DNA from: Gloeothece verrucosa PCC 7822
Lineage (GTDB): Bacteria > Cyanobacteriota > Cyanobacteriia > Cyanobacteriales > Microcystaceae
Assembly: GCF_000147335.1 (NCBI RefSeq)
Contig: NC_014501.1
Span: 186,001 to 250,000 of the forward strand
DNA length: 64,000 bases
Direction of reading: 5' to 3'
Shown one piece after another: positions 6,975 through 53,088 of the stretch (position 1 is its first letter; each line of letters starts with the position of its first letter). A program made the translations under genes and the position numbers. The notes under the pieces are model-generated. The model had not been told where the DNA came from, ran no database searches, and saw nothing but the letters and a program-made list of their open reading frames with translations.

Positions 6975-7724
6975 ATGATTGTTTGTCCTAACTGCGATCA
7001 CCAAAATCCTGACGGGGCGGCTCAATGTGAAGCCTGTTACACCCCGTTACCTGTTATGAGTTTTTGTCCTAATTGTGGCGCTGGGGTTCAAGCCAATGCT
7101 ACCTTTTGTGGACAGTGCGGCTACAATCTCCAACCCCCAGGGATTCCTGCTGAACCATCAACGCCAGAAATTTTATCTAGTCCTTCAACGACTAAAAGTG
7201 CGGAACGCATTCCGCACCCCAGTAAAAGTACCTCTCCCCCTGACACTTCCTCGCCTGCGGTCACGGTTCAGTCTCTCCCCCCTGAATTGCTCAAGCCTAA
7301 GCCTAGTAGTCCGCCGGTTATTCCCTCACCGAAAAGTGACGAGACAGCTTTAGATCAAAACGAGTGGGAAATAGCTGGTATGACTCGCCTACAAATCCAA
7401 AAAGCGAGTTTACTACATTTACAAACCAACCAAACCGTAGAAGTTCCTCAAGGATTATCGATCATTCATATTGGCAAACCGAATGAACGTATTCCTCCGG
7501 ATATTGATGTCTCTGGTTTCCCAGATTCGGATATTGTCTCTCGAGTCCATGCAGATATTCGTGTAGAAGGCGATCTTTACTATATTGAAGATACCGGCAG
7601 TTCTAATGGAACTTACATCAATCACATTCCCCTCTCACCGGGAGATCGCCATCGTTTACGCTCAGGAGATCGCATTGCTCTGGGAAAAGGGGACAAACTG
7701 ACCTTTATTTTTCAACTGTCGTAA
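6975..7724 (+). CDS. Double zinc-ribbon FHA-domain protein
   Basis: Two CxxC...CxxC zinc ribbons occupy residues 1-50 (CPNCDHQNPDGAAQCEAC, then CPNCGAGVQANATFCGQCG), followed by a Pro/Ser-rich linker and a C-terminal FHA domain (about 150-249) with HIGKP, SRVHADI and GSSNGTYIN. FHA domains bind phosphothreonine, so a partner of the Ser/Thr kinases in this window is plausible but inferred. The linker contains the palindromic in-frame insert encoding SAERIPHPS. A short TAATGACT-type repeat lies immediately upstream of the ATG. The protease gene follows closely (about 27 nt to its ATG). Confidence 0.9.
   Translation: MIVCPNCDHQNPDGAAQCEACYTPLPVMSFCPNCGAGVQANATFCGQCGYNLQPPGIPAEPSTPEILSSPSTTKSAERIPHPSKSTSPPDTSSPAVTVQSLPPELLKPKPSSPPVIPSPKSDETALDQNEWEIAGMTRLQIQKASLLHLQTNQTVEVPQGLSIIHIGKPNERIPPDIDVSGFPDSDIVSRVHADIRVEGDLYYIEDTGSSNGTYINHIPLSPGDRHRLRSGDRIALGKGDKLTFIFQLS
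7198..7217. repeat. Palindromic repeat read in frame (copy 1)
   Basis: GTGCGGAACGCATTCCGCAC has perfect 8-bp arms around CGCA. With its flanks it encodes SAERIPHPS in the linker of the FHA protein. A second copy, in the same reading frame, is at 52316-52335. Confidence 0.9.
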
Positions 7725-10657: not shown

Positions 10658-10790
10658 GATTTACTCCTCTTTGACTTGTTTTGAATTCAAAATGTTTTCA
10701 TTCAAAATTCAAAATGAATCTAATCAAGTGTAAAAAATTCAAAACTCTTTTACTTCTGTCAGGGGGAGTATTTTTTCTTATTCCTAAAGT

Positions 10791-10858
10791 AAGTACCTGG
10801 ACACTCATTAAAGTTAACTGTTTGGCAAGGGAACAGGGAACACCGTATCTGGGAGGGT
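10791..10858 (+). repeat. Dispersed repeat (AAGTACCTGGACA / GGGAACAGGGAACA family)
   Basis: AAGTACCTGGACA (10791-10803) leads into ATTAAAGTTAACTGT (10807-10821), then AAGGGAACAGGGAACACCG. The first part matches the end of the MITE-like element at 30210 and the sequence at 56478; the second part closely matches 35895-35932. It lies in the spacer between the MscS and MBL genes, which otherwise shows nothing recognisable. Confidence 0.75.
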
Positions 10859-29948: not shown

Positions 29949-30432
29949 AGTTGTGTTTTTTTAATTTTTGTTTGAACAGATTAGCAATGAGACTTGTATT
30001 TTTATGTATATACTTGTTTTCTCTTGCTGTATTCAATGTTACCAAAATGCTATTAGATTTAATGTAATCTATCACTATATAGATGTATAACTTACTGTAA
30101 ATCTTTCTTAATCAAATCTTAATAATTCATTAATTCTTTAAAAATTCCTCAAAAAAAATTCTCACGACATACCCTATCAAGAGTACCTTTTGCAACAGCG
30201 CCTGTTGCTAAGTAGTCGGACACTCATTAAAGTTAACTGTGAGGTTAGGGTGTGGGGGAATTGTGGGCGTTTTACAATTCTTTATACAAAGTGCTTTATT
30301 TATGTCCAGGTACTTATAGCGTTTCTCAAATCAATGAGGTACACCTCAATTTTATTTTTTATTACCTGTTCCCTGTTCCCTAAAATCGAAAAACTATGTA
30401 CCTCACTAAAATGAGAGATGCTATATATTTTT
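29949..30432. other. Intergenic region holding a MITE-like element
   Basis: Very AT-rich near the PEP-CTERM gene. It contains the element at 30210-30315 and, near 30363-30380, a TGTTCCCTGTTCCCT motif of the dispersed GGGAACA repeat family. No gene recognised. Confidence 0.6.
30210..30315. mobile_element. MITE-like element, about 106 bp, imperfect terminal inverted repeats
   Basis: The left end reads AAGTAGTCGGACA then ATTAAAGTTAACTGT; the right end read inward on the minus strand is AAGTACCTGGACA then TAAAGCACTTTGT. The ends share AAGTA, GGACA and TAAAG in register. Similar end sequences occur alone at 10791 and 56478. There is no coding capacity, so it would depend on a transposase elsewhere. 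Confidence 0.55.
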
Positions 30433-35834: not shown

Positions 35835-36137
35835 CTTTTAACTTTGGATGAGTTAAACTATATTAATAAATTTGGTTCTACAAGGTATAGAATGCTGTTT
35901 GAAAAAGGGAACAGGGAACACCGGATCTGGGAACAATCCGACTTAAACTGATAGTAATAAGTTATAATCCTTGCGCCGTCAAGCTTTTAAGCAAAATCTA
36001 GCATACTAGAAAGTGGAGAACCATAAATTTTTTGTGTCTTTAGACATTTACAAACCTAGGTTTTTACCCGATATAATCAGGAATTAAATCGCTATACTCA
36101 AGCGGGATTTAATGTAGTATTATACAGCCAAAGAACG
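35835..36137. other. Divergent intergenic region with a dispersed repeat
   Basis: The repeat CTGTTTGAAAAAGGGAACAG then GGAACACCGGATCTGGGA (35895-35932) is a near copy of 10816-10856. Its tail can form a hairpin CGGAT/ATCCG. The rest is AT-rich promoter-like spacer. No gene recognised. Confidence 0.55.
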
Positions 36138-49534: not shown

Positions 49535-50521
49535 ATGCAAACCCTGATTAACTATTCCACTTCACTTCAATTATCACCCTTACCCCTTAAACGTCCCTTG
49601 TTAATGATCGGTCATGGTACAAGAGACGCAGAAGGCCGTCAGACTTTTTTAGATTTTGTCCAAGTTTACCAAGATTTAGATAGTTCTCGTCCTGTCATTC
49701 CCTGTTTTCTTGAACTGACTACCCCGACCATTGCTGAGGGAGTAGCGTCTTGTGTCTCCCAAGGTTACACAGAAATATCAGCTTTACCGATTCTTCTGTT
49801 TGCCGCACGTCATAATAAATTTGATGTCACCAACGAATTAGATCGCACTAAACAACTCTATCCTCAGATCAATTTTCACTATGGGCGGCATTTTGGCATT
49901 ACCCCTAGTATTTTAGACTTGTGGCAACAACGATTAGACCAACTCGACCAACCGGAATATAATCCTCATAATATCCCCCGTTCGGAAACCGTTTTGTTAT
50001 TAGTCGGAAGAGGTTCGAGCGATCCGGATGCCAATGGAGATGTCTATAAATTAGCGAGAGTGCTTTGGGAAGGAAGCGGCTATCTAACCGTAGAAACTTG
50101 TTTTATTGGCATTACCCACCCTCGACTAGAAGAAGGTTTCCGTCGCGCTCGTTTGTATGCACCCAAACGGATTATTGTCTTACCCTACTTTTTATTTACT
50201 GGCGCTCTAGTTAAGAAGATTTTTGCTATTTCTCATCAACAACAACAGCAGTATCCAGAAGTTTTAATTAATTGCTTACCGGAAATGGGCATTCAACCCC
50301 AACTGCTAGAATTAGTCCGCCAACGGGAAATAGAAACCCAACTCGGAAGCGTACAAATGAACTGTGAGATGTGTAAGTTCCGTCTAGCGGCTCTTGACAA
50401 AAACAACGCTCATAGTCACCATCATCACGATCATAATCATCACCATCATCACGATCAGGCGGTGCCCGATCCCTATGCTAATCTTGAGCAATATCACGGT
50501 AGAATCTGGCAAACGCCATAA
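49535..50521 (+). CDS. cbiX: Sirohydrochlorin cobaltochelatase, CbiX-L type
   Basis: 328 residues: two CbiX-type chelatase halves (about 20-135 and 150-265), each with the G-H/R-G-(S/T) motif ([15 protein letters not shown] and [15 protein letters not shown]), followed by a C-terminal tail with MNCEMC (MxCxxC, about 276-281) and a His-rich stretch. MxCxxC plus His-rich tail is the pattern of long CbiX, in which an iron-sulfur cluster is held by the motif. It inserts cobalt (or iron) into sirohydrochlorin, feeding B12 or siroheme. The tail could store metal. Confidence 0.88.
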
Positions 50522-50820
50522 TAGTTATTAGTCGTTAGTCATTAGTCGTTAGAATTGTAGGGTGGGTTAGGTGCGGGGATAATTTTTATAAGAAACGGAT
50601 AAGTTTTGATCCGCTCCGTAACCCACCACTGTGTATTTTTTATCAACATAAACATTTTTCCCCACGATGCCGAAAGAGCCTAATAACATTTAACCCTGAC
50701 CAATGACCCATAACTAATAATTAATAACTAATAATTAATAACTAATAACTAATGATTAATAACTAATGACTAATAACTAATGACTAATAACTAATAACTA
50801 ATAACTAATGACCAATGACT
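50522..50820. repeat. Repeat-rich intergenic tract
   Basis: Three parts: TTAGTCGTTAGTCATTAGTC near 50526; an inverted repeat GGTGGGTTA (about 50561)/TAACCCACC (about 50620) around a GC-richer core; and 50700-50820, an AT-rich run of 7- to 14-base units such as TAATAACTAATGACTAA. The first and last parts are inverted relative to each other and could pair. The sipA start codon lies inside the end of this tract. Confidence 0.85.
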
Positions 50821-51087
50821 AACTTAAAAATAACTGTTGGTAGCCAAGTCAAACTAATCGCTTTACCCGCTTATTTCAAGACGGCTGAACCTATGCCCAT
50901 GCTTCGTCCTGCCGATATTCTAAGCATTGGTGAGGCAGGAATTGTCATTGATCGTCGTCCTGGCGGCTATTGGGGTGTTCGTTTTAATCGAGGAGCTTTC
51001 CTCGTAGAAAGTCAATATCTCGAAGTTATCCCACCCCCTGATCCGGCCATGACCATTGAGTCTAAAACTCAAGAAAAAGATCAATAG
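50815..51087 (+). CDS. sipA: Regulatory protein SipA
   Basis: 90 residues. SipA binds the histidine kinase NblS (Hik33/DspA) and modulates its signalling. The core matches: VGSQVKLIALPAYFKTAEPMPMLRPADILSIGEAGIVIDRRPGGYWGVRFNRGAFLVESQYLE (in order: SH3-like barrel). The ATG at 50815 is unusual: it lies in the last unit of the TAATGACTAA repeat, CCAATGACTAAC. There is no ribosome-binding site, so the native start may have been reshaped by the repeat. No NblS gene is in this window. Confidence 0.9.
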   Translation: MTNLKITVGSQVKLIALPAYFKTAEPMPMLRPADILSIGEAGIVIDRRPGGYWGVRFNRGAFLVESQYLEVIPPPDPAMTIESKTQEKDQ

Positions 51088-52146: not shown

Positions 52147-53088
52147 ATGAATTCTTTTGCGAATCCGTCTTTTGAATCACCCCGTCAGGGCAAAACGACA
52201 TCACAGAAGTCAGAAACTTCGCTGCCGGAGTCTGTACTATCGACAAAATCTCAGACGGTGATGAGTCAGCAGACATCCGCTTTAAAAGTGGAACCAGAAG
52301 AATTAAAAATGACTAGTGCGGAACGAGTTCCGCACCCCAGCCAGCGACAACTACCTATCCCTGCTCCTTCGCAGCCAGAGCAGTATCGAGCCATTGGTTT
52401 AATACAAGGTCACTATCAACGCTCATCAGACCAACTTAACCGAGGTAATCTTTTGACTGCTGACGGAACTTTGATTAATGCTGTGATGCTAGGCCGAGTG
52501 ATCGGCTTATTCAAAAAACTGATAGACCTCGAAGAACCTCATTTATGGGTCGTTTATCCCCGAACAAGGGACGACGAGCAACAATTACACGTGCAAATTG
52601 TCGGGGTTTGGGAGCCTGAAACGCTGTGTAAAGACGAGCCGCAACCCTTAGCTAACTCTGACGATCAAACCTTAATCAAGCATGGCTATTTTTCGGTTCG
52701 AGGTGAGGTCATCTTCGCTTCTGCGGAAAAACAAATGGTCATTGTTAAAATTAGACAAGCTCCCAAACAAGAGCAAGAAAAGCCGAAATTTTTTAAATTA
52801 ATCTTGAGAGGAACCCTGCCGGCGCGACCTGTCAGCCGATTTTGGGATTTAAAAGTAGAGTTACAAGGTAATGATCTCGTTATTCAAGAAGCCACCGATT
52901 TAGGCTTTATTAAAAATAAAAAGTCTTTCAACAACCGCAAAAAAACTTTAACCAACAGCCGCTCAAGAAAACCTTTTAATAATTCTCGTTCTCTAACTAG
53001 AAGTTACCCAGAAAATAAAAGTCAACAGCCTCAAGAGATAAAATTTACTCCGAAACCATCTAAAATCATTAAGAAAAAAATTGATTAA
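52147..53088 (+). CDS. Conserved hypothetical protein carrying the palindromic coding insert
   Basis: 313 residues. The first 80 are Ser/Pro/Gln-rich and disordered and include SAERVPHPS (about 58-66) encoded by the palindromic repeat. Residues about 80-260 are a conserved-looking core (RAIGLIQGHYQRSSDQLNRG, LLTADGTLINAVMLGRVIGLFKKL, FFKLILRGTLP), possibly an OB-like barrel. The last 50 are Lys/Arg/Asn/Ser-rich, basic and suited to nucleic-acid binding. No named family known to me; RNA or DNA binding is a guess. ATG start. Confidence 0.75.
   Translation: MNSFANPSFESPRQGKTTSQKSETSLPESVLSTKSQTVMSQQTSALKVEPEELKMTSAERVPHPSQRQLPIPAPSQPEQYRAIGLIQGHYQRSSDQLNRGNLLTADGTLINAVMLGRVIGLFKKLIDLEEPHLWVVYPRTRDDEQQLHVQIVGVWEPETLCKDEPQPLANSDDQTLIKHGYFSVRGEVIFASAEKQMVIVKIRQAPKQEQEKPKFFKLILRGTLPARPVSRFWDLKVELQGNDLVIQEATDLGFIKNKKSFNNRKKTLTNSRSRKPFNNSRSLTRSYPENKSQQPQEIKFTPKPSKIIKKKID
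52316..52335. repeat. Palindromic repeat read in frame (copy 2)
   Basis: GTGCGGAACGAGTTCCGCAC has perfect 9-bp arms around GA and encodes SAERVPHPS with its flanks. Compare copy 1 at 7198-7217 in an unrelated gene: same frame, same surrounding residues. Confidence 0.9.

Follow-up and report, generated by a model that had tools for sequence, protein, structure and literature searches.

Our analysis of the window, by which we mean the whole stretch of 64,000 nucleotides, revealed two copies of a short palindromic element, both located inside genes. The first copy (7198..7221, plus strand) is found in a gene (6975..7724, plus strand) that, according to Pfam and its translation, encodes a double zinc ribbon, a proline/serine-rich linker holding the element, and an FHA domain. 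The second copy (52316..52339, plus strand) is found in a gene (52147..53088, plus strand) for a 313-aa protein that is conserved in the cyanobacterial family of the organism, with the element in the variable N-terminal part; a Pfam search with this protein gave no match. A first-pass annotation of the same DNA had reported a palindrome in each of these unrelated proteins, translated as SAER(I/V)PHPS, and this was confirmed: GTGCGGAACGCATTCCGCAC occupies 7198-7217 and GTGCGGAACGAGTTCCGCAC occupies 52316-52335, and the copies are read as S-AERIPHP-S and S-AERVPHP-S, respectively. Three details of the description had to be corrected, of which the third, the reading frame, is taken up below. Perfect arms, claimed for both copies, are present in copy 2 (centre GA), but in copy 1 (centre GC) the innermost pair is a C.A mismatch, which leaves a stem of 8 bp and a loop of 4 nt. 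Furthermore, the palindrome was correctly recognised but the unit is longer, namely 24 bp including the CCCA directly 3′ of the palindrome (7198-7221 and 52316-52339). The sequence common to both copies amounts to 26 nt (AGTGCGGAACGNNTTCCGCACCCCAG). With ≤3 mismatches, the palindrome gave four strand-hits in the window compared to a mean of 0.13 in shuffled windows, and none of 100 shuffles reached four.

Structure and distribution of the 24-bp unit

The genome-wide search that the first-pass annotation had proposed yielded 82 copies at ≤3 mismatches. Copies were located by pattern search, examined together with about 8 kb of flanking sequence each, and then lined up. They have a unit of 24 nt in common, a 9-2-9 palindrome with a one-sided CCCA tail (GTGCGGAAC-NN-GTTCCGCAC-CCCA), and their flanks are variable. 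The pattern GTGCGGAA-N4-TTCCGCAC occurs at 62 sites in the organism's own genome (7.84 Mb on 7 contigs, with a chromosome of 6,091,620 bp), and the reversed control pattern at none in the same genome. In local sequence, CCCA stands behind 63 perfect 8-bp hairpins and each of the other tetramers tried behind 1-7, with the exception of CCCC, whose count consists of CCCA copies in a register shifted by one base. A second stem family (GTCGGGAAC-NN-GTTCCCGAC-CCCA) of about 14 copies, 12 of them perfect, has the same tail and length as this main family, and the total in both stem families is about 97 copies. The outer stems, GTGC/GCAC in the main and GTCG/CGAC in the second family, differ by compensatory changes, which indicates that the hairpin has been kept and not the letters alone. 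As a folded single strand the unit is stable, at -8 to -9 kcal/mol and with z between -3.8 and -5.8. We rejected the possibility that the element is part of a longer repeat, since copies other than those in the MITE set described below, or in tandem or nested arrangements, have unrelated flanks. At two loci (L055 and L064) a 26-nt relative with an imperfect stem (GTGCGGMAC..GAGCGTTGCACCCCA) and a CCCA tail abuts the element on its upstream side, and tandem arrays and further subfamilies therefore exist.

All of 49 further genomes of the family, and all of 195 others in a sample of the order, lack the tailed pattern. A scan of 84,980 species, with one genome each, returned 17 contigs with isolated palindromes only, in unrelated flanks. 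As far as can be seen from the family and order genomes, all of which belong to other genera, the expansion is private to the species. Plasmid records contained no match to a plasmid host region and, for the element, only chance matches of 19-20-mers.

Empty and filled insertion sites

The best evidence for insertion came from a MITE family of many copies (66 matches in the genome). Sixteen readable copies are empty at the site in question and read CTCACA|GTTAACTTTA (CTCACA|GTTAAC) with small changes at most; one of these lies in the window (30209..30316, minus strand, junction between 30237 and 30238). In three other copies the 24-bp element stands between CTCACA and GTTAACTTTA, with all else unchanged, and comparison of the three filled with the 16 empty sites revealed no target duplication. 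Filled and empty versions of a matching host repeat in one genome provide unusually clean evidence for the movement of 24 bp. The MITE itself has inverted ends (TAAGTA...TACTTA), dozens of its copies, complete or partial, are present in the genome, and a truncated end is located at 10790-10831 of the window.

Conserved genes tell the same story by comparison with relatives or paralogues. The glycosyltransferase 9 homologue is longer than 12 relatives by exactly eight residues (VRKEFRTP), and FolC has eight residues (SAERVPHP) more than nearly all of 12 relatives. The same gain of eight residues was seen for the GDE, GH65 and ABC ATPase hosts, for which fewer relatives were compared. A D1-like PsbA contains eight additional residues (CGTSSAPQ) in the D-E loop relative to the best PDB D1 chain, and an iscB gene is 24 nt longer than two paralogues. 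The iscB-like genes, which encode an RRXRR domain, are located at L089:3307-4428, L055 and L057; one carries an antisense copy of the element and two paralogues lie near other copies. Three hosts were left out as proof of insertion because their gaps were ambiguous or comprised 16 residues (PEP synthase-like L079, DUF3598 L082 with an antisense copy, and DUF218 L042), and the alignment of DnaN (L116) does not span the insertion. The comparison of orthologues, which had been suggested as a way to find clean insertions, succeeded for several genes, in which relatives lack the element at the same place, but not for the two window hosts, in which the linkers vary too much and align too poorly to give an exact empty site. 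The motif SAERxPHPS was absent from those orthologues of the window hosts that were read.

The element was inserted as an exact unit of 24 bp and without target duplication. From the fixed differences we infer that it moves, and the mobile nature that the first-pass annotation had only supposed is now supported by empty sites both within the genome and in relatives. The target consensus is loose: the unit is preceded by YA and followed by GTYWA (YA^GTYWA, or TWRAC^TR on the other strand). A dispersed mobile DNA element of 24 bp that does not move autonomously would best explain these observations, and very probably the repeat is such an element, similar in size and style to the small dispersed repeats (SDR) of cyanobacteria. 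A palindrome of which some copies are intergenic might also be a regulatory site, such as an operator or terminator, that has arisen many times in place. This is extremely improbable, since the empty sites of exactly 24 bp identify the copies as inserted units, genic copies occur on both strands, the tail is asymmetric, and no T-run follows the hairpin. For the copies with empty sites an operator or terminator is refuted.

Copies in genes and the central dinucleotide

The 24-bp unit contains no stop codon in any of the six frames. As 24 bp correspond to eight codons and both strands are free of stops, every genic insertion is in frame, and a selfish element of this kind can live in genes without breaking them. 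Insertion into a gene lengthens the protein by eight residues with the frame intact, which applies to about half of the copies, some of them in conserved enzymes, and makes the element a source of short protein insertions. According to a simple gene finder that was written for this analysis and used for all genic and intergenic calls, 45 of the 82 copies are fully inside genes and 46 overlap a gene. Among the hosts are FHA proteins, Ser/Thr kinases and histidine kinases, FolC-like proteins, CoxB, carbonic anhydrase, TrbI and others, and also, on a smaller replicon, DnaN- and DnaX-like proteins.

The genic share of 55% is nevertheless below the 76% expected (p 2e-5) from a null model in which insertion sites are drawn according to the target consensus, and 37 copies are intergenic where 19 were expected. 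When the frames of the genic copies were listed, as the annotation had advised, they were found in frame yet spread over all six, with 14 of 45 copies antisense. The frame shared by the two window copies is indeed the commonest genome-wide, but is one of six that occur: SAE(R/L)VPHPS is read in 18 of 45 genic copies compared to 21-23% expected, an enrichment of about twofold (p 0.003-0.011). The overall deviation among frames is marginal (p 0.03-0.065). Selection that removes copies harming the protein would account both for genes holding fewer copies than expected and for the mild overrepresentation of the hydrophilic SAE(R/L)VPHP frame. Genes thus accept the element, though some copies are lost, and do so most readily when it is read in the hydrophilic frame; such selection after insertion fits the frame bias better than a coding purpose does.

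The first-pass annotation had likened the repeat to the protein-coding palindromic RPE elements of Rickettsia, and of this comparison the in-frame insertion into genes holds, but not the rest, since about 45% of the copies are intergenic, genes are depleted and six frames are used by a unit of 24 bp. RPEs are about 150 bp long and have conserved peptides (PMC10969869). The element resembles them in being palindromic, dispersed and in frame in many unrelated genes, but differs in its size, its six frames and its nearly half intergenic copies; with neither a length of about 100-150 bp nor a single conserved coding frame, it was rejected as an RPE. An element that spreads mainly as an in-frame insert, with the octapeptide SAE(R/L)VPHP under selection, would suit the 46 gene-overlapping copies that keep their frame and the twofold enriched SAE frame. 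We regard this as very unlikely, because it is at odds with the intergenic excess (37 vs 19) and with the use of six frames including antisense ones, and because the length of the unit and the absence of stops alone explain in-frame insertion.

One host merits separate mention. The D1-like PsbA with the insert (L094:3300-4397, at about 4.156 Mb of C1) has a C-terminal region that departs from usual D1. Cyanothece PCC 7822 produces in darkness a D1 protein, PsbA4, that is believed not to support oxygen evolution (PMC4320622). Judging from position and sequence type, the insert-bearing gene is probably this dark-expressed psbA4, and if so, a protein with the insertion is known to be expressed.

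The centre of the palindrome takes two main forms. Among the 82 main-family copies it is GA in 37 and TC in 35, the self-complementary GC in eight and another dinucleotide in two, and GA and TC centres are both present in the second stem family. The 188-bp MITE copies with the element at two loci (L189 and L194) differ from each other at two positions only, which are those of the centre, TC in one and GA in the other; GC is found in the third filled copy of the MITE. The central dinucleotide thus occurs equally in both orientations and differs between otherwise identical copies, which means that the centre flips. Such a difference makes inversion at a short palindrome measurable. Template switching between the arms of inverted repeats is known to homogenise the arms and to invert spacers of 2-5 bp (PMC8604942). 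A polymerase that switches template between the arms would invert the centre and keep the arms mostly perfect, and this is the likely cause of the flip as well as of the preservation of perfect arms. GA and TC could instead mark two subfamilies that were amplified separately and never flipped, as both are abundant in the main family and both recur in the second. This is unlikely given the 188-bp MITE copies, which share one insertion point and differ at the centre only, and the third copy filled at the same point with GC; different masters would have had to hit an identical position in an identical sequence independently, a coincidence.

Relation to known repeats and candidate enzymes

The SDR repeats of Nostoc punctiforme and its relatives reportedly measure 21-27 nt and comprise eight described families. 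They are cited as dispersed cyanobacterial repeats of these organisms in PMC4390886 and PMC3116915, and PMC4390886 places the insertion of SDR5 between bases 3 and 4 of HIP1. The element described here is likewise cyanobacterial, dispersed and, at 24 bp, within the size range of SDR, has a hairpin kept by compensatory changes, and is precisely inserted into another repeat, the MITE site. It differs in its host lineage, in a target other than HIP1, in the large share of in-frame genic copies, and in the flip of its centre. In its size, lineage, nesting and structure, as compared by description, it behaves as an SDR would, and these repeats are its closest known kind.

REPs are the next closest kind. 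They are palindromic units of 20-40 nt with a tag (GTAG or CGTC) at one end, REP families have been reported from Cyanothece strains including 7822, and some REPs are located in genes (PMC3733652). The element is palindromic, of REP size and tagged at one end, with some copies in genes. Its tag, however, is TGGG/CCCA, its copies are mostly single and not inverted pairs, about half of them are genic (45/82) even though depleted there, whereas REPs are mainly extragenic, and there is no cognate RAYT flanked by the element. It was therefore rejected as a REP on tag, location and RAYT link. It was also rejected as a MITE, being a palindrome with a one-sided tail and not a pair of terminal inverted repeats with target duplication. 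No published report of the 24-bp unit was found in the literature searched. What is new over mobile palindromes of SDR or REP size are the unusually clean empty sites, the large genic fraction and the flipping centre.

The absence of target duplication, the tagged hairpin and the one-sided preferred pentanucleotide (TNRRC on the other strand) are as an HUH enzyme would leave them. A transposase of the HUH (Y1) type, either a RAYT or a TnpA as in IS200/IS605, might recognise the single-stranded hairpin and join it 3′ of a TNRRC-like pentanucleotide, a route that we consider the best candidate, if somewhat short of an even chance. With IS200/IS605 elements the unit shares a hairpin, the lack of target duplication and, less clearly, a preferred pentanucleotide beside one end; it differs from them as a single hairpin of 24 nt with no second end and a looser, TNRRC-like target. 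The genome contains seven Y1 (HUH) matches, namely three IS605-type TnpA, one TnpA of 146 aa, two fragments and one RAYT, and the hairpin of the element was found beside none of these seven loci within 1.5 kb on each side. The single RAYT-like gene (L124, at about 4.569 Mb of C1) is flanked by GTAG-type REP repeats (GTAGGGTGTGTTAGCG...CGTAACGCACC), and no copy of the element is near it. No autonomous copy with the hairpin of the element was found, and within the 1.5 kb on each side of the Y1 loci no ends are shared with a TnpA-bearing element. The left ends of the genome's own IS605 copies are located 3′ of TTGAC (two copies) and of the similar TTGAG (one copy); for a HUH link this is no more than suggestive.

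Copying through an RNA intermediate was reportedly proposed earlier for SDR elements. For the same 24-bp element, a group II intron or retron reverse transcriptase might have served this purpose, and this is the main rival to the HUH route. Frames resembling group II intron reverse transcriptases are present near the two Y1 fragments (L123 and L125), and the copies are found in either orientation, many of them in genes. We find the RNA route improbable all the same, as no intron-like sequence surrounds the copies, and a DNA enzyme with strand specificity accounts more readily for precise units of 24 bp that have their preferred flank on the side of the tail. With an expansion in a single species and few Y1 enzymes to choose from, the mover of SDR- or REP-sized elements becomes a testable question.

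Taken further, and with more doubt than confidence on our part, the element may be among the smallest mobile DNA units with precisely known limits. It would be a single-stranded hairpin of 24 nt that is moved in trans by a HUH enzyme and, being eight codons long and free of stops in all six frames, writes octapeptides into functional proteins, the D1-like photosystem II protein included, with the flip of its centre acting as a reversible two-state change of a codon. If this is true, a flip in a genic copy would be a switch between Arg and Leu in the commonest frame.

Other repeats were noted in the window. Tandem repeats of 54 nt, an in-frame length, are located at 373-570 and are apparently coding for a proline/threonine/serine-rich sequence. 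An array of 7-nt units (TAACTAA/TGACTAA-like) occupies 50685-50836, similar sequence runs in inverted orientation at 50519-50552, and a near-identical repeat of 28 nt (AAGGGAACAGGGAACACCGKATCTGGGA) is found at 10827-10854 and 35905-35932.
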